Program-made: the position numbers and the translations under genes
DNA from: Trissonchulus latispiculum
Taxonomy: Eukaryota; Nematoda; Enoplea; Enoplida; Ironidae
Direction: 5' to 3'
Length of the DNA stretch: 64,000 bases
NCBI GenBank assembly: GCA_030248195.1
Contig: JASAND010028129.1
Span: 29,444 to 93,443 of the forward strand
The notes under the pieces: generated by a model
What the model was told of the DNA's origin: nothing
The model's input: only the letters and a program-made list of their open reading frames with translations
Databases searched by the model: none
Shown here: positions 5,643-56,990 of the stretch, piece by piece
Position numbering within the stretch: the first letter of the stretch is position 1
Layout of the letters: the number at the start of each line of letters is the position of its first letter

Positions 5643-5846
5643 TGATTTCCCATTTCGGGCTCATCAATCAATCTTTCCTATGCCTGCTTCTCTTACAGTT
5701 TCGTCCGCATTTGTCCGACTAAAAAAACACATTGTTTCTTAAGAAAACTGGAAAAAGGGCTCCTTTAGAATGATCTCGTTGAAGTGATTTAATTTGATAT
5801 TTAGTTTAGATTGATTTTGTTTTAGGTTCACGAAATCAGATTCAGC

Positions 5847-11965: not shown

Positions 11966-11991
11966 ATAGGGGTCGCTACCGCGACCCCTAT
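11966..11991. repeat. Perfect 11-bp hairpin (ATAGGGGTCGC)
   Basis: ATAGGGGTCGC at 11,966-11,976 pairs exactly with 11,981-11,991 across a 4-nt TACC loop. It is the leftmost strong member of the hairpin-rich locus. Confidence 0.8.
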
Positions 11992-11999
11992 GATATAGT

Positions 12000-13790
12000 T
12001 TTTGTTAAGGAATTGAGGTCATAGTGACTTTTGAAAATTTTGTATCTTTAACAGATTAACATAGGCAAATTTTGGAAATTTTTTAAAAATTGTTTATTTT
12101 GGGCAGTTTAAGCATCCTATTGTGTATGAAATGCGTTTTTCTTGTATTTAGAGCCAAACTGGGTCCATTTTGGGACAAAAATGAGTATATATTGCAAAAA
12201 TAGAAATTTTGGCTTGACCCCCTGGAGCAACCACAAGAGAACCAACCCCAGGATAAATCTATATATATATACCAGTTTAATCTACAGGCTGGCATTGTTT
12301 AGTGGGTGTGGAGCAGTCATATTGTAATCTGCACATACAAAGTTTAGATTTCCCATTTTAGACGGTAACAAAACTATCAGGATCTTCAGACAAATCAATG
12401 ACTGAGTCATACCTCAACGCTAGCCTTATCCAGTCACAAAAACGTTAAACTACTTCAAAACTGGCACAAGATCTGTGAAATCATAGAACAGAAAAATTGA
12501 AAGGAAATATAATATAGGATATATTTATTCAAAACTTTAGGGTCTTCATTGGGTCGTCAATCATTATTGCGCCCACTGGCGGATCTGGGACTTTGGGAAG
12601 CGGCGAGTGGCCTTTCAGGGAGCAATTTTCACTGAAACGGGAAGGTGCGAGGCGAGGGGCCAGAACACTCCAGAAGTTGAAAAAAATCGTTTGTCCATTT
12701 TAACAAAATCGCTCATCAAACATTCAATTCTTTTCAGTGGCACGGACCCGACCCCCCGACTCCTGAATCCGTCGTTGGTAGAGTCACAGATATCAAGTCG
12801 TGAAATAGTGTTTAATAAGGTGTCATACCACAGGAGAGGAAGATGGGCCAACATTCATAAAAACAATAATTTCCACCGAAACCTACGAAATCTACACTTA
12901 GGTGAAAATGCCCCCCCAAAGTAGGGGAAGGTCCAAAAGTGGGGGATAAAATAAGCAATGGCCTACAAATGCTAAAATACTGTATAAATAACCTGTTTTC
13001 AACATAGTGCTATACCCAAGCTAAACCATGCTAAAAATTAAGGGTGCTCGAGTGGGAAAGGAACCCAAAAACTGGGGGCGCCCCCACCCCCCGTACTAAA
13101 GCAAACTCAGTATATTCCAATAATTAACATATGTAATGAAGTGGGTAAGATCGAGATTCCAAATTCCGCAACAGTCTATCACGACTGACTCTGGGTATCA
13201 ACCACTTCGAGTACACGGAAGGTCGACTCGTTTATGACCAAGGGTTCAATTTAAACACTTACTTGTGCAGGGGCTATGAATCCAAAGCTTGATCTGAACC
13301 TTATGTCCTAGTCAGTGGATTCAGTATTAGGACACAACAATTTAATAATGATAACTATAATGATATTAGCAACGATAGTAGTGACAGTAAACAATGAACA
13401 GGATTATTACAGTGCGTACAGGGGATAAGACAACTTACAAATCACAAACTATATGCTATTTAAACAATTAGACAAACAATAATGGTTTGCCAGAGTTGCC
13501 AGTATCTGATTTACCCAGATTATTAATGGTTAATAGGGACAAGGTTCCGATAGCTAAACTCAACTCTACTATATTCCTCTTTCTTTCCTTTCCTGACTAA
13601 CTAACCAATTGTTTAGCCTATTACCAAACTATACTGTGCGGTCCCTATATGGTTGTGTTCGTGTGGTTAGATTATAACTCTTCTACCGTCCTCCTTACTA
13701 AAGGACAATACAATACCAATAAAACAGGCTGCTGAACAATTCAAATTAACTAGATTAAAGGGGTTAGTAGTGCAAGGTTTCCGGTCTTTG
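12000..13790. other. Intergenic, weakly structured
   Basis: No gene is supported. Only weak hairpins are visible (ATGACT-g-AGTCAT at 12,398-12,410; TGTCCTA...TAGGACA at 13,305-13,335). C and G tracts near 12,910-13,090 suggest decayed MITE sequence. Confidence 0.35.
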
Positions 13791-13797
13791 GGTGAGC

Positions 13798-15360
13798 CCG
13801 AAATGCTAGTAACAATAGCACTTTCGGATGCTATACGGTTGCCAAGGGGTCAAACACAAGGGGGGTCCGGTTGGGGAGATTCCTGGTCCGTTTATGGAGT
13901 TAGTACAGATTAAGTTTAATTTTAATCTCTTCTTTAAATTCTCTGATTCCGACTGACTTGAAGAACACTGATTAACTTAAGCCCAGGGGCAAGGGGTAAC
14001 AACCCCTTCAGTAAGACTGATGATAAGCTCAAAAAGATTCATCTTTTGGATTGAAAGAAACGAATAAAGTTCAATTTGAAATGCTGTGAAAGGATGATTT
14101 CCAAGTTCGTTGAACTAGGTTTTAGGTCCCGTATTCAATTCTGGTGCTTGACTTCACAAATAGTCTCTGCCTTAACCGTTCCACAAAAGTCCGATCCGAC
14201 CTTCTCAATGTACCTTATAGAACTGATTCCGATCCAAATAACTGTCCAATATCCGTATGTCCTCCTTCGGACTGACCGGACTGACTATCAATAGCTCTGA
14301 TCAAATATATATATTACTGAGACTTCCGAAATACTGACGATCTAGGCTTGATTCCGGCAGGACCACGTTCGCTTCCGCACCTGAATCAAATGGGTTAAAA
14401 CCCATTAATACAAGTTATAGGTGCGGGATTCGAACCCAGCAACCATTACTCACATTTTGGCTTTCTGAACTTAGAACAAACTCGTACAAGTCAAATTTGT
14501 TGTGAAGGTTCGCGATTCAAGCGGATTAACACAAGTTCTGAATGATTTGAGTAAGATCACGATACTTAAAATTGGTTTTAAGTAAAACGTTAGTTTTTAG
14601 GACAATTTCTTGCGTTCTTGTGCAAGAAATTGTGCCTTCGATGTGAAACTGTGATTTCAACTTGATTTCTCTTTGTACAGTCTGCTTCTGTACGATTAAA
14701 ACCTATTACTTGAATTTGATACACTTTTGGGTCCTTTAACAGCAGACAGGTACTCCTTTATTCGGCTAACACGAGAAACATTAAATTGGTTAAGATGATC
14801 AAGTTTAGGACCTTTTGTTTTTCGGGTCCTAGCAAGGAAGGTAACAACTTCCTATCTTTGATAAGTGTTACTTAATTAGAAAGCGATTTGCACGTGAGTT
14901 TGGCGAGAACACAATACTTGAATGTAAAGCTTTTAGTTTCGCGAGTTTAAGTAAGGAAGGTAACAACTTCCTGGTCTTAGCAAATATTAGCCGGTTAAAA
15001 GAGAGTTAACGCACAAATTTAACGAAAACGTCATAATTTAACGTAGAACCTCTGTTCTTTGCTGGGTTCTACCAAGGGAAGGTAACAACTCTCTATTTTA
15101 TGAGTAGTAAACGTTGAAGACTGGATAAGTTCACAAAACTGGTGATTTTAGCCTTTATTAGAAGATGGTTCTGGTGCCCTATCCATAATACTTACGTAAC
15201 TACGGTTGATTTGCTTATTTCAGGTATATTATCAACTATTGCCTAACATTAGTTAAAATCGTCAGAATGTTGAAACCGATTATTGCCATTTGTGAGTAAT
15301 TAACATGGATGAATTTCACATTAGTCATAATTGAGCAAGGTTGATTTTTCAACCTTGCTA
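13798..15360. repeat. Hairpin array, left half
   Basis: Short inverted repeats follow one another with unrelated stems. Positions: 13,798-13,827 (11 bp with a one-nt bulge, loop GTAACAA); 13,907-13,928 (7 bp); 13,991-14,008 (6-7 bp, loop TAACAA); 14,375-14,426 (8-bp CCGCACCT stem enclosing an 8-bp AATGGGTT hairpin); 14,602-14,633 (12 bp perfect); 14,675-14,693; 14,806-14,831 (7 bp); 14,835-14,853 and 14,954-14,972 (AGGAAG stems, loop GTAACAA); 15,043-15,072 (8 bp); 15,334-15,359 (11 bp perfect). No protein-coding frame is present. Function unknown. Confidence 0.75.
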
Positions 15361-15423
15361 ACTTTTACGAAACGGGATTTGATTAATTTTTGTCTTTGAA
15401 CGTGAACACCGACATGAAATGGT

Positions 15424-15908
15424 TGTGAAGATAGCACTCACAAGAAACATACAAATATGTTCGAATTTTACAAAGTTTGACAAACGCTCAGTATTTTTCC
15501 AACTCCTGTCTAAATTCATCAGTCAATTAGCTAATCTCGAAATTAGTTCAAGCTTGAACAGGTTAGTTGAAGGGAGGTTGAGCTAGAGATTGGTCGGGGG
15601 CTTTTGTAGAGTAGCGCCAGCGAATTTTTGGGGTTCATTGAATCGGGTAAAGCTAGTAAAGTTATTGGTGCTTGTTCAATTTTGTTTGCTGTTATTCAAA
15701 TTATTTCTCTAAAGTTAGTTTCGTGAATTCGTAGAGTAAATTGTGTTATTTTCAAATATTTCTTTCAGTGGGTTAGGGTCAACACTTTCCGACATCGCAC
15801 ACCACACAGTTACCTCGTGATCTTGTCTTATCCTAAATTATAGATAGTCAACTCGTTTTATTTAAGAGTCAGAGCATTTTACTAACATACGTATACTCGA
15901 ACTTCACA
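15424..15908 (+). repeat. LTR1 of gag-only element
   Basis: About 485 bp, starting TGTGAAG and ending CTTCACA. It is nearly identical to 22,222-22,707; differences cluster in the last ~60 bp. Confidence 0.85.
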
Positions 15909-15910
15909 TG

Positions 15911-15926
15911 TGGCGACCGTGTCATG
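15911..15926 (+). other. Primer-binding-like site
   Basis: TGGCGACCGTG begins two bases after LTR1, where reverse-transcription primer sites lie. The same site follows LTR2 at 22,710. Confidence 0.6.
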
Positions 15927-16186
15927 TGGTAGATGTCGGGAAATGGTGACCTTGACCAAAACTTTTGTCTTAAATTACAGATTTTACTAAAGTTTGATTT
16001 TTGATTTAGTCTTTTTACAAAAATTGTCGCAACCAAGCAACAGTCGTAGATCGGGGGACCAAGGCTAAAAACCCCCGTGGGCCGCTATGACGGGGGGCAC
16101 TCCTCCCCCTCCCCCAAATTACTTTGGGTGCAAATTCTCAGAGTCCCCCTTATGCACAAAGGTTGAATGAAGTATTTGAACTGCCA

Positions 16187-18337
16187 ATGATGGGGGGAAG
16201 TACGCAGTTACAGAGTGGAGGGTGTGCCCTCCCAAAAGAAAACCCCCAACTCCAACCATCCCTCCCCCAAGCTCAGAATCCACCCCCACCTCCCCCAAAC
16301 CCGGGTCCAAATTTTTCGGGGGGAAAGCCTTGGGATCGTCGTCAGAATCAGTTTTGTATTATAAATATGTCGTGTGACGACAGAAAAGACCAGGAGCCCC
16401 TTATTGAAAATCGTTTTGAAAGTTTGGGAGCTCATACGTTAGAATTCACCCCCAAACCCCTTTCAACCCCTGCTGTGTCCCAAACAGTTTTTTCTCCTGT
16501 GGCCGGCCCGTCGTTCCCTCAGGTGTCGAATGATCAGGGGGCACCCATATGTCCAGATTATCAACATTCTTACGGTTCTAGACCTGCTAATATAATTTCG
16601 GCTGCGTCAAGAAGCCCTCAGATTCCGAATTCGGGGGGTCCGCCCCCATGCCAAAATCCGCCCCCACCTGGCCAAAATTTGGGTCAAAATTTTTCTGTGC
16701 CTTATCACGCAGTGCCTGATTCCTGGCCTTCACAACGCCAGTACCAGTCGAATGCTCCGCCACCTATGGCACTGCCTCCCCAGGCTGCTGGACAGGCCAA
16801 TTTTGATCCAAATTATTATTATGGCCGGAATCAACAGTATACGTACGTACAGCCAGACTTTTCTTCTGAAGCTCAATATGGCTGCCAATCGGGTTATTGT
16901 CCAGTTTATGATCACGCTCCGTCTTTTTATCAGCAGTCCCAACAGTTGTTGGCTCCAATGAACCCAGATGTTGGTCTAGGTACCCCTAAAAATTATGGGT
17001 TTTTTCCGCAACAACAAAGGGGTCAACAGCAGACTGCAACCCCTCCTGTTATGCATGCTAGTGATGTTTCTGTCAGTAAGCATAGTGCCCAACTGTATCG
17101 TACGTATATGGCGATTTTGCAAGATATTCCCCGTTTTGAACCGGCTTTGGAATACTTCGACGACTGGTTGCCCCAATTTGTGTCGGCTGCTACGATTTAC
17201 GGAATTCCTCAAGAACAATGGGCCCGTTTGATGTTTAGCAAACTGTCGGGAAAAGCGCTTATATTTGCTTCTAGAATTGGTCCTGGTGTTGTAGAATCGT
17301 TTGATAATTTTGTTCGTTTGATGAGGACACAATTCCCTAAACCTAAAATATCTGTTTCTGAAAAATTCCACCGGTTTATCCAGCGGGTTCAGCAGCCTGG
17401 AGAATCAGCGCGTCAATATGTGTCGGAGCTGCAGTTGCAAGCTTTGGAAATTTGGCCGTCTGAGGTTGACCGGGACAGGCACTGCGTGCAACAACTATTT
17501 GATGGAATTCGTTCAGAATATGCGTCAGCTTTGGCCTCAAGTTTCGGTAAGGGAGAACCCACATTGAATGAAATTTTATGTATCCTTGATAAATTAGAAT
17601 CTCGTAATTCCAGAACGGGTTTTTATGATTTTCAAGCCTATGTTGCTCCGGATCTTGATGTGGAAGCTCAAAAATCTCCAAAAGAGGGGGTGGCCCCCCT
17701 TGATTCGACACCTGTGACGCGGCTGGAGCTTCGGGAGTTGAGAAACTGGTTTGAGTCAAAATTGCAGCAGGAGTTGAAGGAATGGGAGGACGAAAAAGAA
17801 AAGGGTTCTCCTATCTGTCGATATTGCAATAAACGGGGTCACCACTCTGATCGATGCTGGGATAAAAATCGTTCAAGGGCCACTTTAAATCATACCCAAG
17901 CTTCTGAGGCTCAAATTCAAGAACAGGTCAATCTGGTGGGGTTTTACCCATTTCACCCTCCCTATTCAGCATATTGCTTTCCGCCAGTACAGACGCAGCC
18001 GGTTCCGACCTATGCCTACTACCAGCAGCAATATCAGTCTCAGTGGCGGTATCAGCAGCCGTTTTCGCTTTGTCCACTGCTACAGTCGCCTCCACGTCTT
18101 GTGGCGGCGCCTGTCGCTGTGGGGGCCAAACCGGTTGCCCCAGCTGCCAACCGCAATTTTAGCTGCCACGCAGCGGCTGCACTTCCATCAGCTGTTCAAA
18201 TGCCATCAGCTGTTCCGACACCGATGGCCCCAAAAGTGCACTTGATTCAAATTGGGCCTGTTCATGAAAAAATGCGGGCGTCCTCCCCTCAGATTTTTTT
18301 CAGCTTGCAGCACACATTTGTCCGAGTCCTCCCTTGA
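16187..18337 (+). CDS. gag: Gag polyprotein of the gag-only LTR element
   Basis: The first in-frame ATG is at 16,187, giving 716 aa; the frame is open back to 16,091 without another ATG. The N-terminal ~300 residues are Pro/Gln/Tyr-rich and disordered-looking. A retrotransposon-gag capsid region follows (about residues 320-490) with phrases such as WARLMFSKLSGKALIFA and ESARQYVSELQLQALE. A CCHC zinc knuckle, C-x2-C-x4-H-x4-C (CRYCNKRGHHSDRC), lies near residue 545. The C-terminus is Gln/Ala/Pro-rich and stops before any protease motif. A 95-codon frame at 18,252-18,539 in another phase may be a worn extension. Gag packages element RNA in virus-like particles; retaining only gag suggests trans-mobilisation by a pol-encoding relative. 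Confidence 0.85.
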   Translation: MMGGSTQLQSGGCALPKENPQLQPSLPQAQNPPPPPPNPGPNFSGGKPWDRRQNQFCIINMSCDDRKDQEPLIENRFESLGAHTLEFTPKPLSTPAVSQTVFSPVAGPSFPQVSNDQGAPICPDYQHSYGSRPANIISAASRSPQIPNSGGPPPCQNPPPPGQNLGQNFSVPYHAVPDSWPSQRQYQSNAPPPMALPPQAAGQANFDPNYYYGRNQQYTYVQPDFSSEAQYGCQSGYCPVYDHAPSFYQQSQQLLAPMNPDVGLGTPKNYGFFPQQQRGQQQTATPPVMHASDVSVSKHSAQLYRTYMAILQDIPRFEPALEYFDDWLPQFVSAATIYGIPQEQWARLMFSKLSGKALIFASRIGPGVVESFDNFVRLMRTQFPKPKISVSEKFHRFIQRVQQPGESARQYVSELQLQALEIWPSEVDRDRHCVQQLFDGIRSEYASALASSFGKGEPTLNEILCILDKLESRNSRTGFYDFQAYVAPDLDVEAQKSPKEGVAPLDSTPVTRLELRELRNWFESKLQQELKEWEDEKEKGSPICRYCNKRGHHSDRCWDKNRSRATLNHTQASEAQIQEQVNLVGFYPFHPPYSAYCFPPVQTQPVPTYAYYQQQYQSQWRYQQPFSLCPLLQSPPRLVAAPVAVGAKPVAPAANRNFSCHAAAALPSAVQMPSAVPTPMAPKVHLIQIGPVHEKMRASSPQIFFSLQHTFVRVLP

Positions 18338-18913
18338 ATGCGCCCCTGTCTTTACTTGTAAAAGTGGGTGTCAAGAAGAGGCCGCTCCTTTAAAAAAGGG
18401 GGTGGACCCCCGCAAATTGAACGATCTATGTACTCAAACAGAAACTCTGTCTGAAGTTATTGATTCTCCAAGACCGGAAAACCGCCCAAAAGAGGGGGTG
18501 GAAGCCATTCCCTCGCGATTTCTAGACAAACCGTCTTAAAATCTTTCTTGACCTGCGCAAAACTTGTTGACAGCGTTTTTCACAAGATTTGCACACGTAT
18601 GATGATGTTTCACAAATTTGCCAAAAATTTCAATCCTGAATCTACTTTTATTCGTCGTAATTTTGTTAATTTGCGTTTGTGTTTTCTTGTATTTTTGTCT
18701 GTATGCCCCATCCGTGTATCACCTAAAGTTTCGTATTATCACAAAGATTTTTATTTTAGCGTCATTGATTTTTACTTTTTATCTTTATTTTAGATTCATG
18801 CATTCATCTATATTTCCTTTTCCTTTTTCACAGCATACTTCATAGCCTTTTACATAAAAGTGTTCACCCTCTCATTTTTTCACTATTTTCGAGCTCTCCT
18901 ATTTACTTTTTGA

Positions 18914-19111
18914 AAATTTTGAAATTCTGTGCCGAGGTCGGCACGGCTAAAAACGAAACTGATCGGGGGAGGCCACAACTTTGTGTAAAGGAAGAGCTGT
19001 CCATACGTAATATGAAAACCAAAACGGGAACAAAAACGGTTCAGGTATGTGTGAGATTTGGCCATATTCACCCAATGTTCACCTGTGCCGACCTTGGCAC
19101 AAAAATTCAAA
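18914..19111. repeat. 28-bp inverted repeat pair
   Basis: Arms at 18,914-18,941 and 19,084-19,111 share TGTGCC-RAGGTCGGCAC flanked by TTTTGAA words, separated by about 140 bp. They could be the ends of a small element or an RNA stem. Confidence 0.6.
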
Positions 19112-21764
19112 AAATGGCTCCAAAAGTGTTCCTGTTTGCATAGAAACATGCAGCAGCATGGTTTGGTTAAAACTATCTAATCTGGAAAAAATTCTATCCA
19201 GGCCATTTTAATCTACTTCATTTAGTTCACCCTTAGTTGGCCGCATGTTCACCTTGTTTACCTATGCCGACGTTAAATTTTGTTACCTCGTAACTTTTTT
19301 GAAATCCACTTTTTACTTACTTACCTTTTTGAAATCCATATTTATTCTTACACTTTCCTTTTTCTGGAACTTCTGGATACAAGTTTTGAATGATTTCGGC
19401 TAAGTCACTTTCACCTTTCACTTTCACGTTTCTGTGTTTTTCTCACTTTTGATGTATTGCACCTTTTATTTTGTGTTTAGCTGATTTTGGTAATGTCGGT
19501 ATTTTTGCCCAACGCCTTGGTTGTCACTCCTGTATTTTGGACTAACTGCCTGCAGCTTTCTGTCCTGATGGGTTCTTTCTTGGATGACCTTTAAGGTGGT
19601 ATTTTTCTGTTTATTCTTTCTTTAGTATATACTATACGTATATACGTATATACGTATATATTCGATTTTTGAAATTTCTATGCTTCAAATACATTGACTG
19701 GTGTTCTCGGTGCTTAAATTCCGTTAGATTTTTCAATTTTTAATACATTTTAACCGTATTTGTAAGTTGTTTAGAACTTATTAAATATACGTTGTTTTCG
19801 AAATTTAGAAATTTTACTTGCTACTCCAGCAGGGGTTGCAGCCTCTCTGAAGGGTGAAAAGTTCTCGTTTTCGTAATTAAGTTTTTAGATTTTCAATCAT
19901 TGTTGCCCTTTGAATTAGTGACAGTTTACTCCAACTGTGCTGTTGCTACAACACCTTAAGCTTGACACACTTTCTGACGATCCTAATTAGTTTTTCGTCT
20001 TTCAGGGTTTGGCACTTGTAACCCCGAGGGGTTGCAACCCTTCCACGCTTTAAAGGTCAACCCTGCGGTAATTGTAAAATCATATCAAATTAAATAAATC
20101 AGCAAAGCATTTTCATATTTTACCGTTTTTATTTTTGGGTTTCTTACCTTTTTCACCCTCTTTTTGGAGTGGTGCCTTGCGGGCCGTTGCGACCTCCGTA
20201 TGCCGGGTGGGAGGGCCGCACGCTCGGTATCATTCTTTTTCTTTTTGGATTCCGTTTTGAGTAGCTGTGAGTCTTTCTTTGATTTAGCACAGGCCTTTGT
20301 GCCGGTGCCTCCATATGCTGGGGCGTATCGACACTCTGGTCTGGAGCTTCCCAAATCTTAGGTGGGGCTGTAATTGTGTCGTCTATAATTATGTCGTACT
20401 TATTTTTGTTTTGCATAATAATTTTGCCATTTTATTAATTAGATTCCATTGTGTGCTTTATATTTGTTGGCCTTAATTTTTGTTTTGTGTTCTAGATTTT
20501 GCTGTCGTCTAATCATTTCTACTGTCCGGTGCCGCCCCCCCTGTCTGGTGCGCAGGTGTGCTCCCAATGGTGATTGGTGTCTATGATGGATCTGGGTGGT
20601 GGTTGCGGTGCAGCCTTCGTTTGGCTGCTTGTGGGGTCGTCTGGCCCGTTGTGATTTGGCCGCCGGTTGTGATGGTGTGAGCTTGGCTGTCCACACAGGT
20701 TGGCTCCCTTGTCTTGGTGCTATTTCTGGTGCACCGGGTTTTCCGGTAACTTTTTATCTGTTTTGCCATATGTCTGGCCGTGACTTTTTCTATTTCTGGG
20801 GTGGTATATCTATGCGGGTACGTTCGCGCTTTGCCTGCGCGTTCCCTTGACTAGGTGGGGGCCTAACCGTTATGGGGTCCCCTTGGACTGTGAATGGACT
20901 GTGCACGAGAGGTTGTAAGGCCTCCTGTTTTTCTGACTGGCCGGTCCTGGTGTGAGCAGGGGGCCCTACGGCGGTCGTAGGCCCTCCTGCTGGGTACGTG
21001 CGCTCCTGTTCTGACTGTGACTACACTGCTGACCTGGTTGGCGGTTGGTTGTTGGGCCATCTAGGCTGTGTTTGCCATCCTGACCTGGTTTCTTGATGGT
21101 TTGGGTTTCCTGGCCGACTGTCGACTTGTGCTTCAGCATTGACTTTTGGGTCATTCCATCTTGTTGTGGCAACCAAGTCCAGGGTGAACTGTTGTTGGCT
21201 TCTGAAATCTTGGGTTCGCTGGTGCGGTGCTGAATTGAATACCGCTGTCCCCTCCTTGGCACACCTGTTGACACTGTCCCTCCACCCTATATTGTGGTTG
21301 TGGTAGTTTCGGGTTGTCTGTTCTGTTGCATATTTCTTTATAATAGTTTGGGAGGGAGCCGTTTGGGATCAAATTTTTCTAAAAATGGGGTGTTTGATGG
21401 TTTTTGTTTCTTTCATATGGGTACCCGCTACCTCGGCTTGGCCGTTGTAAATGTCCGTTTGCCGGTACTTGATTAGACGTTTTTCACTGTTGCTTTTTGA
21501 TATTTCTTTCTAGTAATCCGATTTAACAATTTATTCTAGTTTTGTTTTGCATAATTTCTTACGTTTACTGACTATATGTATTCTACTTCTTGATTAGCAA
21601 TATTGAAAAACGGTTTTCAAAAATGGTTTCTTGTGTTTCTCGTTCGCATAACCTCACATATCTCAAAGCCTCGTGTGAGCTTCGGTCGGTCCTGAAGTTT
21701 CCTGTAGTAGTCTAGGTTCCCTAATAGGTAGTTTTGTGTAGCTGTTTGTAGTACTGCGTTGTAG

Positions 21765-21830
21765 TAGTTATGTGTTGTAGTAGTTATGTGTTGTAGTAGT
21801 TATGTGTTGTAGTAGTTATGTGTTGTTGTA
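21765..21830. repeat. 16-bp minisatellite (TAGTAGTTATGTGTTG)
   Basis: Four to five tandem units, followed to about 21,970 by degenerate TAGTAG/ATGTAGGTACGTTG variants. Confidence 0.85.
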
Positions 21831-22204
21831 ATATAGGTATGCTGTGTTGTAGTAGTTAAGTGCTGTAATAGTTATGTATTGTATTAATGTAGGTACGTTG
21901 TAGTAATATTAATGTAAGTAGATATGTAGTAGTAGTAGTAGTTATGTGTTGTATTAATGTAGGTACGTTGTCGTAATGTAATGTAAGTAGATACGTAGTT
22001 GTAATGTTGATATTGTCTCGATTCAGTTCCGAGTAGTTTTACCAACGGTATATGCATATGCATTATTTTATTTGTACGTAATTGCTAACAATCATTTTAT
22101 CTTTACTAGTACGTAGGTTAATTGTGGGTAACTCCATTTTATCATTATTCTAATTGTGTTTGTATATCGTTTGCTGTGTGAACCCGTCCGAGGCCGCACG
22201 GGGC

Positions 22205-22221
22205 CAAAAGAGGGGGTATTA
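22205..22221 (+). other. Polypurine tract of gag-only element
   Basis: AAAAGAGGGGG lies directly before LTR2, where plus-strand priming occurs in LTR elements. The same word precedes LTR2 of the TRIM-like element. Confidence 0.7.
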
Positions 22222-22707
22222 TGTGAAGATAGCACTCACAAGAAACATACAAATATGTTCGAATTTTACAAAGTTTGACAAACGCTCAGTATTTTTCCAA
22301 CTCCTGTCTAAATTCATCAGTCAATTAGCTAATCTCGAAATTAGTTCAAGCTTGAACAGGTTAGTTGAAGGTAGGTTGAGCTAGAGATTGGTCGGGGGCT
22401 TTTGTAGAGTAGCGCCAGCGAATTTTTGGGGGTTCATTGAATCGGGTAAAGCTAGTAAAGTTATTGGTGCTTGTTCAATTTTGTTTGCTGTTATTCAAAT
22501 TATTTCTCTAAAGTTAGTTTCGTGAATTCGTAGAGTAAATTGTGTTATTTTCAAATATTTCTTTCAGTGGGTTAGGGTCAACACTTGCCGACATCGCACA
22601 CCACACAGTTACCTCGTGATCTTGTCTTATCCTAAATTATAGATAGTCAACTCGTTTTATTTAATAATCAGTACATTTTACTAACATTCGTAGACCCAAA
22701 CTTCACA
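22222..22707 (+). repeat. LTR2 of gag-only element
   Basis: Second copy of the ~486-bp LTR, followed by the same primer-binding-like site and leader, i.e. the start of a second interior. Confidence 0.85.
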
Positions 22708-22918
22708 TGTGGCGACCGTGTCATGTGGTAGATGTCGGGAAATGGTGACCTTGACCAAAAATTTTGTCTTAAATTACAGATTTTACTAAAGTTTGATTTT
22801 TGATTTAGTCTTTTTACAAAAATTGTCGCAACCAAGCAACAGTCGTAGATCGGGGGACCAAGGCTAAAAACCCCCCGTGGGCCGCTATGACGGGGGGCAC
22901 TCCTCCCCCTCCCCCAAA

Positions 22919-23757
22919 TTACTTTGGGTGCAAATTCTCAGAGTCCCCCTTATGCACAAAGGTTGAATGAAGTATTTGAACTGCCAATGATGGGGGGAAG
23001 TACGCAGCTACAGAGTGGAGGGTGTGCCCTCCCAAAAGAAAACCCTCAACTCCAACCATCCCTCCCCCAAGCTTAGAATCCACCCCCACCTCCCCCAAAC
23101 CCGGGTCCAAATTTTTCGGGGGGAAAGCCTTGGGATCGTCGTCAGAATCAGTTTTGTATTATAAATATGTCGTGTGACGACAGAAAAGACCAGGAGCCCC
23201 TTATTGAAAATCGTTTTGAAAGTTTGGGAGCTCATACGTTAGAATTCACCCCCAAACCCCTTTCAACCCCTGCTGTGTCCCAAACAGTTTTTTCTCCTGT
23301 GGCCGGCCCATCGTTCCCTCAGGTGTCGAATAATCAGGGGGCACCCATAAGTCCTGATTATCAATATTTTTATGGTTCTGGGCATGCTACTGTAATTTCG
23401 GCTGCGTCAAGAAGCCCTCAGATTCCGAATTCGGGGGGTCCGCCCCCATGCCAAAATCCGCCCCCACCTGGCCAAAATTTGGGTCAAAATTTTTCTGTGC
23501 CTTATGACGCAGTGCCTGATTCCTGGCCTTCACAACGTCAGTACCAGTCGAATGCTCCGCCACCTATGGCACTGCCTCCCCAGGCTGCTGGACAGGCCAA
23601 TTTTGATCCAAATTATTATTATGGCCGGAATCAACAGTATACGTACGTACAGCCAGACTTTTCTTCTGAAGCTCAATATGGCTGCCAATCGGGTTATTGT
23701 CCAGTTTATGATCACGCTCCGTCTTTTTATCAGCAGTCCCAACAGTCCCAACAGTCC
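22919..23757 (+). pseudogene. Truncated second gag copy
   Basis: Nearly identical to the first ~820 bp of the gag region from 16,122. A CAG-to-TAG change puts a stop at 23,074-23,076, and the frame resumes from an ATG at 23,167. The copy ends in a tripled CAACAGTCC unit at 23,735-23,758 and is cut before the capsid domain and zinc knuckle, joined to the last bases of an LTR. Confidence 0.85.
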
Positions 23758-23969
23758 CAAACTTCACATGGTGTTAGGCCGCGGTTGCGGTCATTATTAG
23801 GAGCAAAACATACATCAGATACGGCTAACTTAACTAGAAATGACAATAACAGCGTGTTCTGACTTTGGAAACAAAGATATAGCAAATGCAACTAGAAACT
23901 ATGCTCACTACAGCTTAATTTATATTAACTTGACAACGAGACCGACCATTTGATAGATTCCTGTTCTTG

Positions 23970-26782
23970 CGATTCGTCCGCACTCTTGACAAAGAGTGGC
24001 TTACGCGGACGAATCGAGGATATCCAGATTCGGTCTGATGGGGACCTAATACGGAGTCCCCGTGACTCTAGGTCCTATGGCCTTAACCTCATTTGCATAT
24101 TTTGCTAAACAGCACCTAAACCTAGGTTTCCTACGCAACCGAGTACTCACAAACTTCCAGATATGCACACAAGACTTGCAACCTAAACCTACATTACTTA
24201 TTACTACTTTTCCTGCGTACTATAGGAGTTCTAATATAATTCCGGCACTTCATACAAATCATGCACACAGAGAATCAATAACCATTCAGACAGTCACTTG
24301 CTCGATTACGATTGACGACTACATTACATAAAGCGTACATACAGAGGTCCTAGGTAATCTAGTATTGAACTACGTAATCCTATTTGTTAATTAAACACAA
24401 TCATGCAACATTTGTGCGACACCTAAACTAATAATCACTTATACCTTACTTATGCAATGTTTAGATTAGAGCAAGTTCCTATTAATAAAAATGCAATCAT
24501 TCGTACAAATCACACACACACCTCATTCCTGCTTAAGATCTGAGTCTTGATCACTCCAGCGATGCTCACAACCCTCATCGGACAGAAGGAGTTTCCGCGA
24601 GTCAACGCGCATACAATCGTAGAAGCCAATACAATGCCATTCGTGCAATTCATGCATACACAAACACGCAATCTCTTAGGTAAGTACTTATCTAACTAAT
24701 CCTAAAAACAGACATAATTACAAACAATGTAGATGGAAACTAACTCTAAAATTTAAACGAGAATTTGTTGTGAGTTTTAGGCGTCTAAAACTCAGTTTAT
24801 AGCGCGGAACTTTGGTAATTTTGAGAACTTTGCAAGTTTGAGAAAGCCGTGTGAGTAATGATTGCCAAGCAATCATTACTTAACAAAACCATTATTATCA
24901 AACAAAACTACCAACAATAATTAAATTAATTAGTGGGGAAGCCGGTCATTCCCCGCGAAACGCTTAATTATTAATTATTTAGAAAGAGCAAGAGGTTATT
25001 TTGGAATTCTTGTTTTAAAACTTGCTCATGCACTTTTGATAACCTATTACTTTTTAGTTACCGACCTACAACAAACAGTGCAAATTACAAACAATGATTT
25101 TAAGGCTTAACAAAGCCTGAGATTAAAACAATATGGCCGGCAACTCCTAGTTGCCGGCTGTGAGGTGAGTATTGCCATTTATTAACTTAATAAAAATAGG
25201 GTCGTAGCAAAGGGACCCTCTAACTCAAACTTAGGGATTGGGTCCCCACTCAAATATCCCATATTCTACTTTTAAACCCCAAATTTAGGTCAAAAGGACC
25301 TTGGTAAAAATTGATAAAGGGTTGGTCGTGGCTTGACCGAAAATGCAAGCAAAAGATAACAAAATACATGAATGAAATAATTAAAGGCGGAGGTCAACAA
25401 ACCTCGATATACAGAGAGTGTCGGCACGAAAGACAGAAAAACAGAAATAGGGGCAATTCTCAAGACCTCCATCGAACAGGAGGGGTTTACATGAGCTGCC
25501 CCTTTATTTAAATAATAAAATAATAATGAAGAGAAAGGTGAAATGAAATGAAACAAAATAAAAGTGGCTCAAGGCCCACGCATGCTATCATAACTAAAAT
25601 ATGGCCTTAGGCCCAAAGCATTGAGTGAAAAAATGGGGCTCCATGGCCCAAAGGACACATAAAAAATGGCTCATAGGCCTTAATAAAACGTATAAAAAGT
25701 TGGCCCGAAGGCCCAAAAAATCGCAAAGAAAAGTGGCCTTAATAAAAAAATAAGGCCGAAAAATGGCCGTCAAATCCTAGCGTTTTTATCTCAACTCGTG
25801 GCCAGGTATAGAAGACCTATTTGGCCCTAATTTGAGAGCGTTCGCTGTTTTATACTCAATTTTTTCTGGCCCGAAGGCCAGAAAAGTGCTAATTTTGACC
25901 TAACCGGGGAGGTGCGTTGTATTCCCTATGCAGGTAGCAACTGCACTAGGGAACGCACAAAGGGAGAGGGAAGCAACCGCTCTCGGTTGCACTCAAACGA
26001 ACACTGATTTGAAAATAAAATTTTGGGACCGAGCTGACAGTTTTGCTGACAGCTCGGTGACAGGTCATTAGCGAGACCTGGAGCTCGCGTCTCCTTTGAT
26101 TTTAAGGCAAAGCTTCTAGAAGATTCTAGAACCTTCTAGAAGCTTGCCACCTTTTCCGTGTGCTGCGCTGCAGCGGGCTGACCCAGCTGGCCGTTGGGGG
26201 TGGAAATTAATGAGATTTTGGATTTATTGCCCCCCAACTGACCCATTTTTGATATATTTTGGGTGCCGAAACTTGGCGAAATTTTGCGGAATTTTCTCTA
26301 ACACATAAACGCAACCAAAGGGAGAACTTTGTGAAATTTTGTAACTTTATTGAATTGTTGCGCACGATATACAATTTTCTATGAGTTAAGAGTTACATTA
26401 CAATAATCTACGTACTTACCTACGTTTATCTAGCTACTTATATTTATATTCATATTATTAATAAAGGGGATTAGCCCCCTTCTAACCTACATGTCTTGGG
26501 CCAATACTACTGTTTTCTTCGTTTCCTCTTTGTTGGCCTTGTCCTCGGCCAAAAGTTCAGGTGAGGACAACTGCTAGGCCTGGAAAGAAAGAGGCCTAGC
26601 AGGGAGAGAAAAAGAAGAGAGAAAGTAGGACACCACCTGACTGAGGTGTAGTCTGGGAGGTAGACAACCTCCCAGACAATAGAAAAGGAAAAGAAGTTTG
26701 ACTTAAGTCAAACCTAAAGAAAACCAATTTTAGAACACTCCTTTTTGGAGTGATAAGATTACGACACGAAAAGTAATCTTAT
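23970..26782. repeat. Hairpin array, right half
   Basis: Perfect inverted repeats with short loops: 23,970-24,016 (12 bp, with a 6-bp hairpin in the loop); 24,771-24,794 (10 bp); 24,854-24,880 (11 bp); 24,916-24,972 (9 bp around a 6-bp hairpin); 25,136-25,158 (10 bp); 25,862-25,885 (10 bp, loop CGAA); 25,912-25,958 (5+7+5 bp, loop GTAGCAA); 25,973-25,990 (7 bp); 26,028-26,058 (9 bp); 26,110-26,145 (12 bp); 26,539-26,570 (8 bp); 26,571-26,602 (10 bp); 26,651-26,677 (11 bp); 26,696-26,713 (18-nt palindrome); 26,736-26,752; 26,753-26,782 (10 bp). Stems are unrelated. Before the gag-only insertion this was continuous with 13,798-15,360. Confidence 0.8.
26110..26145. promoter_or_regulatory. Perfect six-unit heat-shock element
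   Basis: TTC and GAA triplets alternate at exact 5-nt spacing, starting at 26,114, 26,119, 26,124, 26,129, 26,134 and 26,139 (three TTCTAGAA words). This is the canonical HSF-binding array (nGAAn pentamers in alternating orientation). The same bases form a 12-bp inverted repeat (AAGCTTCTAGAA and its complement). No convincing start site or gene is adjacent, so activity is inferred from pattern only. Confidence 0.6.
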
Positions 26783-27628
26783 AAAAACATTTTCCTTTAT
26801 AACTTTCTTATTATTGGGAGTTGAAAAGTCGGGTTTGGATTTTTCGAATCAGAATCAAATTCTCTTTCATATTAGCCCAAGTCATTTTCTGACCAAAAAT
26901 ATTAAAATTAACTAATTATTACCTAGTTAATACTTAATTATCACTAATTAACCCTACCTAACTACGTACTTAGCTATTTTGTAACTGATATTGAAACCAG
27001 CTGAAATAAGGGATATTGTTTAAAAATTCATTGCTGGCGCAATATAAGTCGTAGCAACAAAAGCTTTATATCGTTGGATTCAGCTCAGCTTGAATTTTAT
27101 GATTGTTATTTTTACTCACTTTTGTTAAATCTGCTTTGCCAAATTTTTGGTCAAAAAGTGGTATTTTTCAAAAAATCAACTTTCAAAATTTGAAAAACCA
27201 CATATATCTGGTGAAAGCGGGCGCCTAGGCGGTCCTGAAAATCTAATCGAAAAAATTTTCCGTTGAGTGAGTCGCGAGTAATAACCAGTCAAAGTTGCAA
27301 AAAGCGGCAAACATCAAAGGAAATGGAAAAACGAAATTTTGGAATAAAATGCTTATTTCTCAACCGATTTTTTTTCGTTCTTGTGTCAATCGATGCGTCT
27401 TCGGACGGGCGAATTTTTCGGAACGAATGAGCTGAATAGCTTGAATGGTCCGAAAAAATTCCCCGATAAACCGATATTTTAAAATTTTTTAAATTTTAAA
27501 AAATTTTAAATTTTATAAAAATGTTCGTTTCGCTGCAAGGATTCCGAAAATATATGGTTTTATGGGGTTACTACGTATATTTAGCTCACTGGAGGCCTTA
27601 TAGATTTTGTACACACATTTTTGTGTCA
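26783..27628. other. Intergenic, nothing recognised
   Basis: A/T-rich sequence without hairpin density comparable to the region to its left and without a supported gene. A long near-palindromic A/T run sits at 27,478-27,522. Confidence 0.4.
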
Positions 27629-27636
27629 GACTTTAG

Positions 27637-28337
27637 GGCCCATGTCAAGATAAAAGTCACTTGATTTTCTTGAAGCTTTTATTTTCATGGGGGTTCTTGG
27701 GGTTCTGGGGGTTCTTAATTTTTTGTAGAGATTTGATCTATAACTATGGTTAGTTTCGTTTTTTGATGGGGGTTCTGGGGGTTCTTGGGGGTTCTTAACT
27801 TTTCGAATAGATTTGATCCGTGACTACATATATTTTGTTTCAAATTTTTGATGGGGGTTCTTGGGGTTCTGGGGGTTCTGAAATTTTTTTCAGGAGATTT
27901 GATCCTCTACTGCCTAGTCTTAAACGTTTGCTGGAAGTTCTGATGGTTCAGGAGTCCGGGTGTACCAAAAAGTGTGCGCGTTGTCAGGGCTTAAATTAAG
28001 TTCGAACTTGTTGCTCTTGTCGTCAGCTTTCGATTGATACCCATATTGTGGATATTGGATGTTTCATACGCAGAATTTTCAGTCTAAGTTTATGAGAAAA
28101 GCCAGGAGGACCCCCCCCCAGTACACCCCGGTTATGTGCTACAAATTTGATGACTGAGATCCATATACACATATTATAAAAAAATCATGTCTGCTGAAGT
28201 ACCTGCTGAAGGAAAGGATCCGCAACGTAGTCACGTACAAATCAAAGTCCTGGATGCAAACCCATGAAAAAAATTTGAGAACCTCCTTTTTTCTGATGGG
28301 GGTTCTGGGGGTTCTAACTTTTATCTTGACATGGGCC
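27637..28337. mobile_element. MITE beside F-box copy 2 (8-bp duplication)
   Basis: The perfect terminal inverted repeats start GGCCCATGTCAAGATAAAAG. The 8-bp duplication GACTTTAG flanks the element at 27,629-27,636 and 28,338-28,345. The interior has three ~80-bp tandem units built on GGGGGTTCT words (27,689, 27,770, 27,852) followed by AGATTTGATC. There is no transposase. It lies at the 3' end of the F-box pseudogene. Confidence 0.85.
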
Positions 28338-29233
28338 GACTTTAGTTATAGGTATCAACAAACAGTCAGGAATACCGAAAGGATTGCAGATCGCACTTAG
28401 ACTACGCAACTGAGGAAATGTTAAGTCGGACACAGTACCTTCCTCAATACAGTGTTCATAGTAAATGAAACCACGAACAACCAATTCCTGCAAAAGAGGA
28501 CAATTTTCCGTCAAACGAGTTAAAGTTAAACACGAGCACCATAAGTCGGGAATAATTAGGCGTTTCAGATGACTGAAGGAATTGCAAAATTCGGGCTCAA
28601 ACACAGCATAATCGAATTCGCGATGCAGAGAAACCGATAAACGGTCCAAAGACGGCGGGATTAATTTATTAAAGTCCCCATACTCTTCATCGTATTGATC
28701 TATCTGACTGTAATCCGATTCCATACAGTAGCCAAATCGAATACCGTGAGAAGACAGGAATTCGGAAATTTCACTCAATAAAGTTTGATCCAAAGTCTCA
28801 GTCTCCGGGACGTCAAGGTAGTGCAAGTTCAAAGAAATATTTTTAGGCAACAACACATCTAGCAGGAGGCTTTTGGGTTCACCAATTGAATTCCCAGCAC
28901 ACGTAAATTTGGAAAAGAATCGCCTAAGCTAGCCACGAGCGATTCTCGAATCGGATTCAGGAGATAGAGCTCTTTCAGTCCAGAAAATCGATTCATGATC
29001 TGCTCAAAACGGGCATCAACGATTTCGCTCTGTCGAAAACGAAACTCGACACCAGGATTGATGTCGGCTGCTCCCAAGGCAAAACATTCCACATCGCGAT
29101 AGGACTGAAATAGGAGGGAACGAAATCGTTTGGAGACTCTTTCCAGAGGAATTCGGCGGCGCCAAGAAATCAGACGAAAAATATCAACCAAGACAGGATC
29201 TGGCAAATCAAGAAGATTAGCCGTTGTGGACAT
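28338..29233 (-). pseudogene. F-box/leucine-rich-repeat-like protein, copy 2 (frameshifted, truncated)
   Basis: From an ATG at 29,233 the frame gives an F-box (residues ~5-45, LPDPVLVDIFRLISWRRR) and leucine-rich sequence close to copy 1, then hits a TAG at 28,859-28,861. The related sequence continues in another frame to 28,338, where the MITE duplication begins. The 3' half found in copies 1 and 3 (about 350 residues) is absent, and beyond the MITE the joined frame meets a TGA at once. A splice acceptor TTTGTTTCAG sits about 24 nt before the ATG, as in copy 1. Probably non-functional, though the F-box alone could be expressed. Confidence 0.8.
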
Positions 29234-29458
29234 GACTTTAACGCACCAAACACGAATCTGAAACAAATATTAAAAAGCTAATTAATAAGTCTGCCAGGAG
29301 AGAAGACTGTCTTTGAGTATATACATCTCCCACTTAGGAAAAAAGCTTAGCAAGCCCTTCTAAAGCCTCAGAAAGCTTCTTTAAATGTAGAAGACCTGCT
29401 CCTAATTCTTCTACAGTTGTTTCGCCGAACGGCATCCATTCTAAGCAGTGATTATATA

Positions 29459-29725
29459 CTGGGTTTTCTTAGTGGGAGGAGGGGGGCACCCCCACATTTT
29501 GGGTTTCCCCCCACTCGACCCCTTCCCCCACAGTCGTCCCCGCCACTTTTTTAGGCTTCTCCTCCCCACTCACTATAAGGTGTCCAGAAAATGCCAAATT
29601 TTAAGGACTTTTGGTCAAAATTTTCCAAAAATTTCGCCGGAATTTTTTGGCAAAAACCGTCTATTTTGGTACTAAAACTTGATTTTTGAGCACTTTCGAG
29701 CTTATGTAGTTGTAGCAGTTTATTA
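29459..29725 (+). mobile_element. Truncated poly-G MITE, CTGGGTTTA family
   Basis: It starts CTGGGTTTTCTTAG followed by GGGAGGAGGGGGG, then CCCCCACTC, CACTATAAGGTG and a core TTTCGCCGGAA word shared with the copies at 32.1, 52.8, 59.3 and 60.6 kb. The right end is missing. Confidence 0.65.
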
Positions 29726-30063
29726 ACGTAATTTTAACATAAGGTAAACGATTACTCAATCAGATGCGATAATGTGCCGAGCATCTACATAGAAGCAGGA
29801 AAACACTAGGAAGGGTAGGTACACACTCTTCCTATTATAAACTCAAAAAAGTCAAACAATTTTGCGAACGTTGTGCCGAATATTATTCCATGACTCATTG
29901 GTGTGCAGCACTTCAGCTTAAAATTGGAATTCAGGAATGATCCCGAGCAAATCAAAGAAAAGCGAGGCATGAATCAAGAAGTTATTTCACCCAAGAATCA
30001 CGACGCAAGAGGATTTGGCTCCGACTTAAAAGGTGGGTGTGCTAAGCATATACAAGTGGCTGA
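29726..30063. other. Intergenic flank of the 11.6-kb LTR element
   Basis: No gene is supported. The last bases before the LTR are the CTTA target duplication (30,064-30,067). Confidence 0.4.
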
Positions 30064-30067
30064 CTTA

Positions 30068-30563
30068 TGTGGCGAAGCCGAGTTTAGTGCGAGAGTGGGC
30101 TTAGATAAAACTAACTAATTTATTAAAAACAGTTTATATTAAATAAAACCTCTAGCGAGAGGTACTAAAATAAGTCCCTTAGCGAAGGGAAGTCATTTAC
30201 AGACGCGAGTGAGGCAGACATAACGGTATCTTAGAGAGTGAATCTGTTCAGTATTAAGTTCTAGAAAAAGGCGTCAACACGCGCTGTCTTTGATATAAAA
30301 GGCTGCCACTTAACAGGAAAGAATTCGTTGCCCAACTACTAAAACTAGAGAAAAATGGGCCTTTTAAAAGGATTACAAAAGTGGGTTAAATTTACTGAAG
30401 TGGAAAAACAAAAGAAGGACAAAATATGTATACACCCGGATCTGTTATGGGTGATATACTTTTAGAAGAAGTTTAACAGAACTTTAAAATGAAAATGATG
30501 AATTTTAAAAGAACTTTAAAATTAAACTGATTGACGTCACGCAGTGACGTTTGCACTGTTACA
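30068..30563 (-). repeat. 3' LTR of the Ty3/gypsy-type element
   Basis: 496 bp, + strand ends TGTGGCG and GTTACA. On the element strand a purine stretch AGAGGAGG precedes it (30,568-30,580 region), where a polypurine tract is expected. Confidence 0.9.
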
Positions 30564-30667
30564 CTTGCCTCCTCTAACAAAGGCGTGGACCCCACGCCAC
30601 ACAAAACAAAACTAGCTAAAAATAGAGAGCAACGAACTGTCAGGCGCAGTCAACAGGGGAGGTAGAG

Positions 30668-32871: not shown

Positions 32872-32913
32872 AGCGATGAATAGTTGTACAGTAAAATTAA
32901 ACAGGAAAACCAT

Positions 32914-33306
32914 GAACTAGAATAAGAGGGCAACTGCAACTGAAGTTTTGGAAAATTAGAAAATGTAGTGATGGTAGATTAATTACTGCGCGGCATAGAA
33001 CAAAGTAGTTTAATACATCTTGCAGTCATTTAAGATTTGGTTGTACAGAAGTCAGAGGGTCGTTGCCGTGCGTGAAATATTTGGAAAATGGAACTGCATA
33101 TATATATATATAGTCAAGTTGAAAGGATAGATATGTCTGGCACGAATTAACAGCAATAACTACTTGCATAAACAGGACTTGTGTAGGCTGGCCATTGGTG
33201 ATAGCATATGTACAGGTGTTTGAAGCATGGAATAAATGTAAATATTAGGCATGAGTAATGATAAGTCTATGCTAGCGTAATGGTGAGAGTATGATGAACA
33301 AATTAG
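32914..33306. other. Spacer between pol and accessory ORF
   Basis: A 393-bp spacer on the element strand with no frame of note. It could hold a splice acceptor or promoter for the accessory ORF. A (TA) run lies at 33,099-33,112. Confidence 0.4.
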
Positions 33307-37800: not shown

Positions 37801-37941
37801 CTTCCTTTGGAAATCCAGTTCTCCCAGTAGTTCATTCATCGTCATTTGAGACTGGAGGTCGCTCCAGTTATACATCACAATCTGATGAAAGATTGTTGGC
37901 TCAAACGCCCACGAGGCCGTGTAATTCCAATCGAAGATTCA
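34858..37941 (-). CDS. pol: Envelope-like C-terminus + protease + RT + RNase H
   Basis: The uninterrupted frame runs from just after a TGA at 37,939-37,941 to the TGA at 34,858. Counting from the GTG at 37,878, residues ~67-90 form one strong hydrophobic helix, probably the membrane anchor of the envelope-like protein, followed by ~190 polar residues. The aspartic protease active site DTGS is at 287-290. Reverse transcriptase includes FSTMDMASGYWQIKV and the catalytic YIDD at 741-744. RNase H begins near residue 887 (VDASGRGLGAVLS). The order PR-RT-RH then integrase is that of Ty3/gypsy. The fused membrane anchor at the N-terminus is odd: pol is expected directly after gag. Confidence 0.9.
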
Positions 37942-37999
37942 GAGCTCAGGGAGATCTCGCAGTTCAGTATAGGATCCATCTGACTTATACAGCAAGGTT

Positions 38000-41176: not shown

Positions 41177-41179
41177 GCA

Positions 41180-41213
41180 GTGGAATGCTTTTTATCCCAC
41201 CGCTGCCACCATA
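41180..41213 (-). other. Primer-binding-like site of the Ty3/gypsy-type element
   Basis: On the element strand TGGTGGCAGCGGTGGGA follows the 5' LTR after a 3-nt gap. Primer sites of LTR elements occupy this position. Confidence 0.65.
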
Positions 41214-48763: not shown

Positions 48764-48999
48764 ACTAAGACCGAACCAAGGTGGGAGATCAAGGGCCATC
48801 TACCTCTATACCAGGGGCGAATCTGGGAGAGGGGGTCCAAGGGTCCAGAGCCCCTTTTTGGCTGGTTGCCCTTTTCAAAATCCTGGATACGCCCCTGCTT
48901 AAAATCCAAAGACCATTATGAGGCGAAAATACAATTATAGACATCAAGTTTTGGGGGACTTAACCCTCCATACACCAACATTTCGGATTTGACTTTGGC

Positions 49000-50590: not shown

Positions 50591-50602
50591 GTGATAGGTA
50601 CT

Positions 50603-51063: not shown

Positions 51064-51073
51064 ATAGGTACTG

Positions 51074-56985: not shown

Positions 56986-56990
56986 ATACC

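Follow-up and report, generated by a model that had tools for sequence, protein, structure and literature searches.

The closest described counterparts of the element discussed here are giant long terminal repeat (LTR) retroelements. In the gypsy-like Burro elements of planarians, a stretch similar to a viral fusion glycoprotein lies between gag and protease, and Burro is presented as the first case of this arrangement; the same text gives the LTRs of plant Ogre elements a length of 1.9-6.5 kb (PMC6431247). At the level of RNA, hairpins with a GACG tetraloop act in the packaging of alpha- and gammaretroviruses and may aid dimerisation, as stated in the accessible sections of PMC516450. The subject of this study is a 64,000-nucleotide stretch of the nematode Trissonchulus latispiculum (contig JASAND010028129.1, positions 29,444 to 93,443; hereafter the window). 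It contains a solo LTR of ~6.4 kb, derived from an LTR retroelement and split by a later insertion. Many short stems of this LTR are more conserved than their surroundings, and one set of stems has a common loop in a single orientation, both in the LTR and in internal non-coding parts of the element. Little is known about the packaging signals of Ty3/gypsy-type elements in metazoans.

A sequence-only reading had described positions 11,966-26,782 as a hairpin-packed locus whose folded form might matter. Its expectation about the fold was supported, whereas the locus turned out to be a solo copy of a giant LTR with hundreds of copies rather than a lone structured-RNA locus. The element begins only at 13,132, so that the hairpin at 11,966 is not part of it. 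The 17-nt core GGAAGGTAACAACTTCC of the hairpin at 14,841 and 14,960 has 674 exact copies (313 + 361) in the 733.8-Mb genome, against 0 for its reversed control; among the ~100 matches listed, many places hold pairs 104-122 bp apart. This exact core served as bait for all 20 fetched loci, which together with the window copy (WIN) make up the 21 aligned copies; an earlier stem comparison, and the conservation figure given below for 14,421-14,436, used 13 copies. The fetched loci share homology with the window in two stretches, 13,132-15,423 and 23,771-26,995, and fall into two subfamilies, A and B, that are ~70% identical. In the 14 copies with both ends the unit measures 6.1-7.0 kb (~6.4 kb), and copies start with TGTAATGAAGTGG and finish with CATTACA or a near variant, giving TG..CA ends. 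In 6 of the 20 loci, one or both LTR ends were not found as searched. Exact 4-bp target site duplications (TSDs) of varied letters flank 11 of the 14; in two of the others, L018 and L022, the flanks differ, and the third, L028, forms the right-hand LTR of a full-length copy. Copies that align across the insertion point are continuous there, in line with the earlier suggestion that the two flanks of the nested insertion once adjoined.

In the window, the left part of the solo LTR (13132..15423, minus strand) begins with TGTAATGAAGTGG in plus-strand letters and represents the downstream end in coding sense, presumably U5. It is separated from the right part (23771..26995, minus strand), which would hold U3 and a presumed R, by the nested LTR-type insertion (15424..23770), an element distinct from the hairpin-bearing one. 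The window copy lacks ~257 bp at 13,235/13,236 that are present in L009, and it is short at its right end, where L010 extends ~656 bp further to CATTACA. The ends also fit the TGTNR termini and 4-bp TSDs of Ginger-type DNA transposons, but the two-LTR arrangement of the full-length copy decides against this identity, and the terminal inverted repeats of Ginger are longer than the ends here according to the available text (PMC2836005).

The full-length copy, the sole one seen, spans 26.8 kb on contig C2887, with two LTRs in the same orientation (25,715-32,160 and 45,981-52,545) around a 13.8-kb internal region and an outer GATT duplication. A second candidate, C1763, was dropped: the right end of its LTR was not found in the 2 kb at the expected place, and the contig stops before the expected far end of the second LTR. 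The internal region codes on the minus strand, opposite to the GTAACAA loops. Two LTRs of one orientation around a minus-strand gag region thus identify the window locus as a solo LTR with minus coding sense. By position on the minus strand, Retrotrans_gag adjoining the LTR (E 3.5e-08 in L028, above the Pfam cut-off) is followed by a Fusion_gly match (residues 487-758, E 1.5e-05, 23.9 bits, below the Pfam cut-off of 29.8) and by a gag-asp protease (residues 1139-1233, E 1e-09, above the cut-off). The last two share one open reading frame (ORF), and gag occupies a separate frame. Beyond the protease frame lies an ORF with a NADAR match (L029:2800-4389, minus strand, E 5.1e-13), which we take to be a NAD/ADP-ribose-related domain, here inside a mobile element. 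The reverse transcriptase (RT)-bearing protein of the window's own gypsy element found no match in L028, L029, L030 and L032, which cover the internal region. A TGG-containing stretch and the purine-rich GTGGAGGT adjoin the LTRs as candidate primer binding site and polypurine tract.

With Burro, as far as the available text describes it, this element has in common a giant LTR organisation, extra domains and, possibly, a fusion-glycoprotein-like region between gag and protease (PMC6431247). It differs in that RT was not found in the sole full-length copy, the Fusion_gly match is sub-threshold, gag has its own frame, a NADAR ORF is present, and the total length is 26.8 kb with 6.4-kb LTRs. We do not file it as Burro because RT was not found in this copy. 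The 6.4-kb LTR is at the top of the range known for Ogre, whose hosts are plants, and the available text mentions loop-sharing hairpins neither for Burro nor for Ogre (PMC6431247).

All hairpins named in the sequence-only reading were found, with loops that read as claimed. Over 11,966-26,782, minus the nested insertion, 11 stems measure 10-13 bp and enclose loops of 3-10 nt; they start at 11,966; 14,602; 15,334; 24,771; 24,854; 25,136; 25,862; 26,110; 26,571; 26,651 and 26,753. The statement that such long stems should be rare by chance was borne out by comparison with 30 dinucleotide shuffles. At 24,700-26,800 there are 8 stems of at least 10 bp against 0.03 expected (at least 7 bp: 13 against 0.83), and at 13,750-15,423 there are 2 against 0.00 (at least 7 bp: 5 against 0.70). 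When RNA folding was scored in windows of 150 bases, the mean z-scores of the two strands were -2.45 and -2.44 at 26-27 kb, and only about -0.7 at 14-15 kb. Stems of at least 10 bp are also abundant at 52-62 kb (14 against 0.20 expected) and 8-12 kb (2 against 0.00), where many are G/C runs or GC-rich repeats, so that density alone is not the striking part. Stems of at least 8 bp show no excess at 0-8 kb (0 against 1.30) or in the body of the gypsy element (1 against 1.30); in the latter, 6-bp stems exceed the shuffles (29 against 16.1).

The recurring loop, GTAACAA in plus-strand letters, reads UUGUUAC in coding-sense RNA, and the hairpins bearing it or its relatives are given here on the minus strand. 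GTAACAA closes the hairpins at 13,809, 14,841 and 14,960, TAACAA that at 13,997, GTAGCAA that at 25,934 and CAACAA that at 25,395, and the hairpin at 25,204 has a 10-nt loop, GTAGCAAAGG. At 13804..13820 the stem TGCTA/TAGCA continues past one bulged base as CCGAAA/TTTCGG and is near-invariant in both subfamilies, while the hairpin AAGGGG-TAACAA-CCCCTT (13991..14008) differs among copies in both stem and loop. Hairpins with AGGAAG/CTTCCT arms at 14835..14853 and 14954..14972 represent units 1 and 2 of a degenerate ~120-bp tandem repeat. Unit 3 holds a third, weakened UUGUUAC-loop hairpin (15,082; 15077..15093), and a neighbouring hairpin of the repeat unit, TAGGACC/GGTCCTA, adjoins a loop-motif hairpin at 14806..14831. 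The hexaloop hairpin GAGGT-CAACAA-ACCTC (25390..25405) reads CAGCAA in most copies. The UUGCUAC-loop hairpin TGCAG/CTGCA (25929..25945) likewise resumes as a longer stem beyond one bulged base, and its closing pair is compensated to A-T in L013 and L026. Against the claim that the stems are unrelated, those at 14,841, 14,960 and 15,082 are not independent, because they are units of one tandem repeat.

Across the window and the fetched loci, GTAACAA ranks first among 660 heptaloops, occurring with 10 distinct 5-mer arms (8 groups), compared with 3 for the next loop. All 77 GTAACAA hairpins lie on one strand, 42 of them representing the bait hairpin, and the hexaloops TAACAA and TGACAA are equally one-sided (18 against 0 and 13 against 0). 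Eleven stems with GTARCAA loops lie on a single strand, in the LTR and in the internal non-coding part; that all of them are fully paired follows by construction, as they were chosen as paired. Counted irrespective of stems in 14 LTRs, GTAACAA appears 81 times on one strand (28 as bait) and 4 times on the other, with ~10 expected for each. Counted in five sources without selection for stems, 14 of 21 plus-strand occurrences fall within stems of at least 5 bp (L010 6/6, L027 3/8, L029 2/2, L030 0/1, L032 3/4), and the other strand of these sources has none. A covariance model built from the 11 hairpins gave 118 matches in 276,301 bases from 25 sources, with only 6 in the window, all on the plus strand and inside the LTR. 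Hairpins with the same loop also adjoin the 3' LTR (L032) and lie near ORFs of the internal region (L029). Internal hairpin arrays occupy L032:1010-1120 and L029:2398-2610. The supposedly constant loop does recur on different stems, but it is not strictly constant between copies: at 25,934 it reads GTAGCAA, GCAACAA, TACCAA, TGACAA, TAACAA or TGTCAA, with CAA kept, and five B copies have TGATAA at 13,997. Read in coding sense, the majority of variants retain UUG or UUA, mostly a 5'-UU followed by a purine, which we take to be U-turn-like. Among the papers listed by literature searches, no listing mentions a UUGUUAC loop family, and Rfam 15 gave over 8,000-31,000 two matches at E up to 3, both far under the gathering threshold.

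Comparison of homologous copies, which the sequence-only reading had proposed as a check for covariation, indicates that the stems are kept by paired changes and that one-sided changes are few. Since a filter for conserved stems itself favours paired positions, we ran a cross-subfamily test without it, in which stems of at least 7 bp were read from a single copy and then checked against the letters fixed in the other subfamily. Of 130 pairs in WIN stems, 120 are unchanged in subfamily B, 3 are changed on one side and 7 on both sides, all 7 to Watson-Crick pairs. L010 stems against B gave 129 pairs with 8 one-sided and 5 two-sided changes (4 Watson-Crick), L026 stems against A 100 pairs with 1 and 2 (both Watson-Crick), and L017 stems against A 113 pairs with 2 and 8 (all Watson-Crick); the stems of the four runs overlap, so that these figures are not independent of one another. 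For chance Watson-Crick pairs in the same copies, one-sided changes amount to 30-33% (30.5% for WIN) and two-sided ones to 4.7-5.8%, of which 44-48% are Watson-Crick. One-sided changes are hence reduced about fivefold to thirtyfold relative to chance, while paired doubles are about as frequent as chance doubles. Identity between A and B, with bait and heat-shock-element (HSE) stems excluded, is 84.5% in WIN stems, 72.3% in loops and 68.3% elsewhere.

Among positions fixed in both subfamilies (183 pairs), 11 differ on both sides, all of them paired, and 10 differ on one side (3 GT, 2 AC, 5 other). These counts and those of the cross-subfamily test leave out L020, whose right part is not homologous, and place L013 in neither subfamily. 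Parsimony on a tree of 20 copies (again excluding L020; 30 conserved stems, 274 pairs) shows Watson-Crick doubles that stay Watson-Crick in 9 of 9 cases on internal and 11 of 18 on terminal branches, the latter becoming 24 of 49 with L020 included, beside 239 one-sided changes. Two Watson-Crick types, each present in at least 2 copies, occur at 24 of the 274 pairs and in 13 of the 30 stems, whereas slides of the partner by 3 gave 2 and 0 such pairs. With L020 included in the count, the compensations are mostly lone pairs spread across many stems. The ratio of paired to one-sided substitutions shows that arm complementarity has been maintained in the lineage of the element.

We lean, with slightly better than even confidence, towards the explanation that the hairpins would be stem-loops acting in cis in RNA, and that the UUGUUAC set would provide repeated recognition sites, most likely for packaging. 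Our best guess is RNA, given that the loop set is confined to one strand of a transcribed genome and falls mostly outside its coding parts. The fold would act in the coding-sense RNA of the element, where the loop would read UUGUUAC, and the element's own Gag is the most likely candidate to bind the repeated hairpins, which may serve selective packaging or genome dimerisation. At 13,809, seven B copies have a change that is G.U in minus-strand RNA, and the same holds for most A copies at 15,082. Like the GACG hairpins, these have a conserved hairpin loop, and Gag binding is suggested by that analogy; the retroviral motif, as presented in the accessible sections, is a tetraloop in the leader (PMC516450), while here a 6-7 nt UUG-type loop sits on at least 10 stems in the LTR and internal non-coding parts. 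A conserved loop on covarying paired stems, as in retroviral packaging hairpins, is found for the stems in general; for the loop-motif stems themselves, covariation comes from stems chosen as paired, plus single cases. The recurrence of one loop on unrelated stems suggests a binding site open to direct testing, and hundreds of LTR copies in two diverged subfamilies offer natural covariation data on dozens of helices.

More tentatively, and with well below even confidence, we propose that at least 10 unrelated self-complementary stems with one U-turn loop (UUGUUAC / UUGYUR) form a multi-site RNA address tag, placed in the LTR and between ORFs of a giant retroelement with an env-like region. It would be read by a loop-binding protein, for packaging of a 20-kb genome or for mobilisation in trans of RT-less copies.

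Several observations weigh against a packaging signal in coding-sense RNA. Selection on one RNA strand should favour either GT or AC, so the symmetry of one-sided changes (in plus-strand letters, GT 30 and AC 24 on internal, 52 and 52 on terminal branches; 3 and 2 among fixed differences) counts against it. On internal branches GT had at first seemed in excess, at 72 against 45, but this came mostly from non-conserved stems (41:20), and the wobble-based strand call was abandoned. In controls with the 3' partner shifted by 2-4 columns (six pooled), 9 of 20 doubles are paired, beside 593 one-sided changes; the paired share alone is accordingly weak evidence, the ratio to one-sided changes being stronger. 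The outer stem at L029:2411 pairs further on the plus (antisense) strand. A minus-strand TATA-like box read at 25,843-25,856 was discarded because the copies do not conserve it. As to the loop, the motif at 13,997 is replaced by an unrelated loop in L026 and L027, one site reads GTAACAA in L020 and the majority of B copies, against GTATCAA in the majority of A copies, and some loop-motif hairpins lie within the presumed U3. The invariance of 14,841 and 14,960 is uninformative because all loci were chosen by it.

A close rival to packaging is that the hairpins serve translation, splicing or export of a very long leader, for instance through ribosome shunting or internal entry. Only 76 nt lie between the LTR and the opening of the gag frame, and ~180 nt between the LTR and the first ATG of that frame, so that the leader is almost wholly LTR; an AATAAA on the sense strand at 25,503, shared by 9 of 21 copies, would suit a short R with a ~4-kb U5. 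The loop hairpins beside the 3' LTR and near the internal ORFs would be out of reach of a leader function, and taken by itself we consider this function possible but unlikely. We hold a similarly doubtful view of folding at the level of DNA, where the hairpins would act in first-strand cDNA or in DNA within or outside the chromosomes, perhaps binding proteins during integration or strand transfer. It is favoured by the lack of G.U preference on either strand and by the rarity of fixed wobble pairs (5 of 183, in stems chosen as well paired). The strand-specific loop would suit any single-stranded product, RNA included, and we know of no step in the life of an LTR element that requires dozens of internal DNA hairpins.

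Mutation without function, in which one arm is repeatedly overwritten by a copy of the other through template switching or hairpin-templated repair, appears less probable again. Template switching leaves perfect short inverted repeats; the symmetric wobble counts and the hairpin richness of other repeats in the window also agree with it. Such copying does not give stems more conserved than their flanks (84.5 against 68.3%), sits poorly with compensations that are mostly lone scattered pairs, and leaves one loop on at least 10 stems of a single strand unexplained. As to the earlier alternative between a fold that matters and repeated template switching, the paired changes speak for the fold, while the symmetric wobbles keep template switching from being cleanly rejected. 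A stand-alone host gene for a structured non-coding RNA, split by a retroelement, would fit the dense structure and the lack of a coding frame recognised by eye (frames not family-searched), but is refuted by 674 core copies, TG..CA ends with TSDs and the flanked full-length copy, and we give it next to no credence.

Other identities for the loop or its surroundings were also rejected. Kissing of the loop with the element's own RNA is opposed by TTGTTAC (plus-strand letters) being rarer than expected, 4 against ~10 in 14 LTRs. Small-subunit rRNA carries a conserved GUAACAA; a loop acting as its complement, or as a mimic of a tRNA anticodon loop, is a weak idea in either form because loop variants mostly keep only UU-purine. 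A tRNA-related origin was suggested by a B-box-like GGTTCGAATCC read by eye near 14,421-14,436 (minus strand), where ARAGORN lists no tRNA. That stretch is well conserved, with 86% identity between subfamilies.

The other stems of the LTR are again given on the minus strand. In the left part, GTAGAACC/GGTTCTAC (15043..15072) shows compensatory changes, and an 11-bp stem, AGCAAGGTTGA/TCAACCTTGCT, lies at 15334..15359. The right part has a 10-bp stem, TGAGTTTTAG/CTAAAACTCA (24771..24794), in which one pair has two pair types among copies, followed by the conserved 12-bp stem AGTAATGATTGC/GCAATCATTACT (24854..24880) and the 10-bp stem GCCGGCAACT/AGTTGCCGGC (25136..25158). Two compensatory pairs are fixed between the subfamilies in the 9-bp stem ACCGAGCTG/CAGCTCGGT (26028..26058), and two more in the 11-bp stem CTGCTAGGCCT/AGGCCTAGCAG (26571..26602). 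Further on are the 11-bp stem GTCTGGGAGGT/ACCTCCCAGAC (26651..26677), alignable in 12 of 21 copies, and the 10-bp stem ATAAGATTAC/GTAATCTTAT (26753..26782). A row of short GGCC/GGCCC hairpins with differing loops occupies the presumed R at 25560-25780.

For one of the long stems, that at 26,110, a palindromic array is a better explanation. Its sequence at 26110..26145, TTCTAGAA-GA-TTCTAGAA-CC-TTCTAGAA, is an array of three TTCnnGAA units, presumably of HSE type and itself an inverted repeat. The array, variants included, can be made out in 19 of 21 copies; the remaining two are unalignable there. In U3, such an array would make transcription heat-inducible. ONSEN is reportedly a heat-responsive LTR element, and the likeness to ONSEN-like elements lies in the HSE-type array within the LTR, the difference in the env-like region of the element described here. 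More generally, genomic hairpin clusters can be LTRs of giant elements, which searches tuned to short LTRs would miss.

The nested insertion (15424-23770) has the ends TGTGAAG and CTTCACA, a TGGT TSD, and direct repeats at 15,424-16,946 and 22,222-23,746 that are 98% identical. These repeats include the start of its one gag-like ORF, beside which there is no further long frame, and the first of them does not close with a second copy of the CTTCACA end. The Ty3/gypsy-type element at 30066-41712 (minus strand) has 501-bp LTRs that are 99.8% identical, and ahead of its protease-RT frame a Monjiviricetes_fusion match (E 3e-05) lies below the Pfam cut-off. Three diverged F-box/LRR-like regions are located at 5826-7800, 28314-29269 and 45744-47795. 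In the two that were searched, the F-box matches fall below the Pfam cut-off, and for the longest region none of the 8000 candidates scored was a homologue at E 1e-3. An ORF at 62862-63998 without a Pfam match contains 'YVGESGNPLSIRF', which we assume to be typical of GIY-YIG and to suggest a Penelope-like element. A dispersed CCGGC-NNN-GCCGG family at 48578-60821 keeps its stem constant and varies its 3-nt loop, the reverse of the arrangement in the solo LTR.

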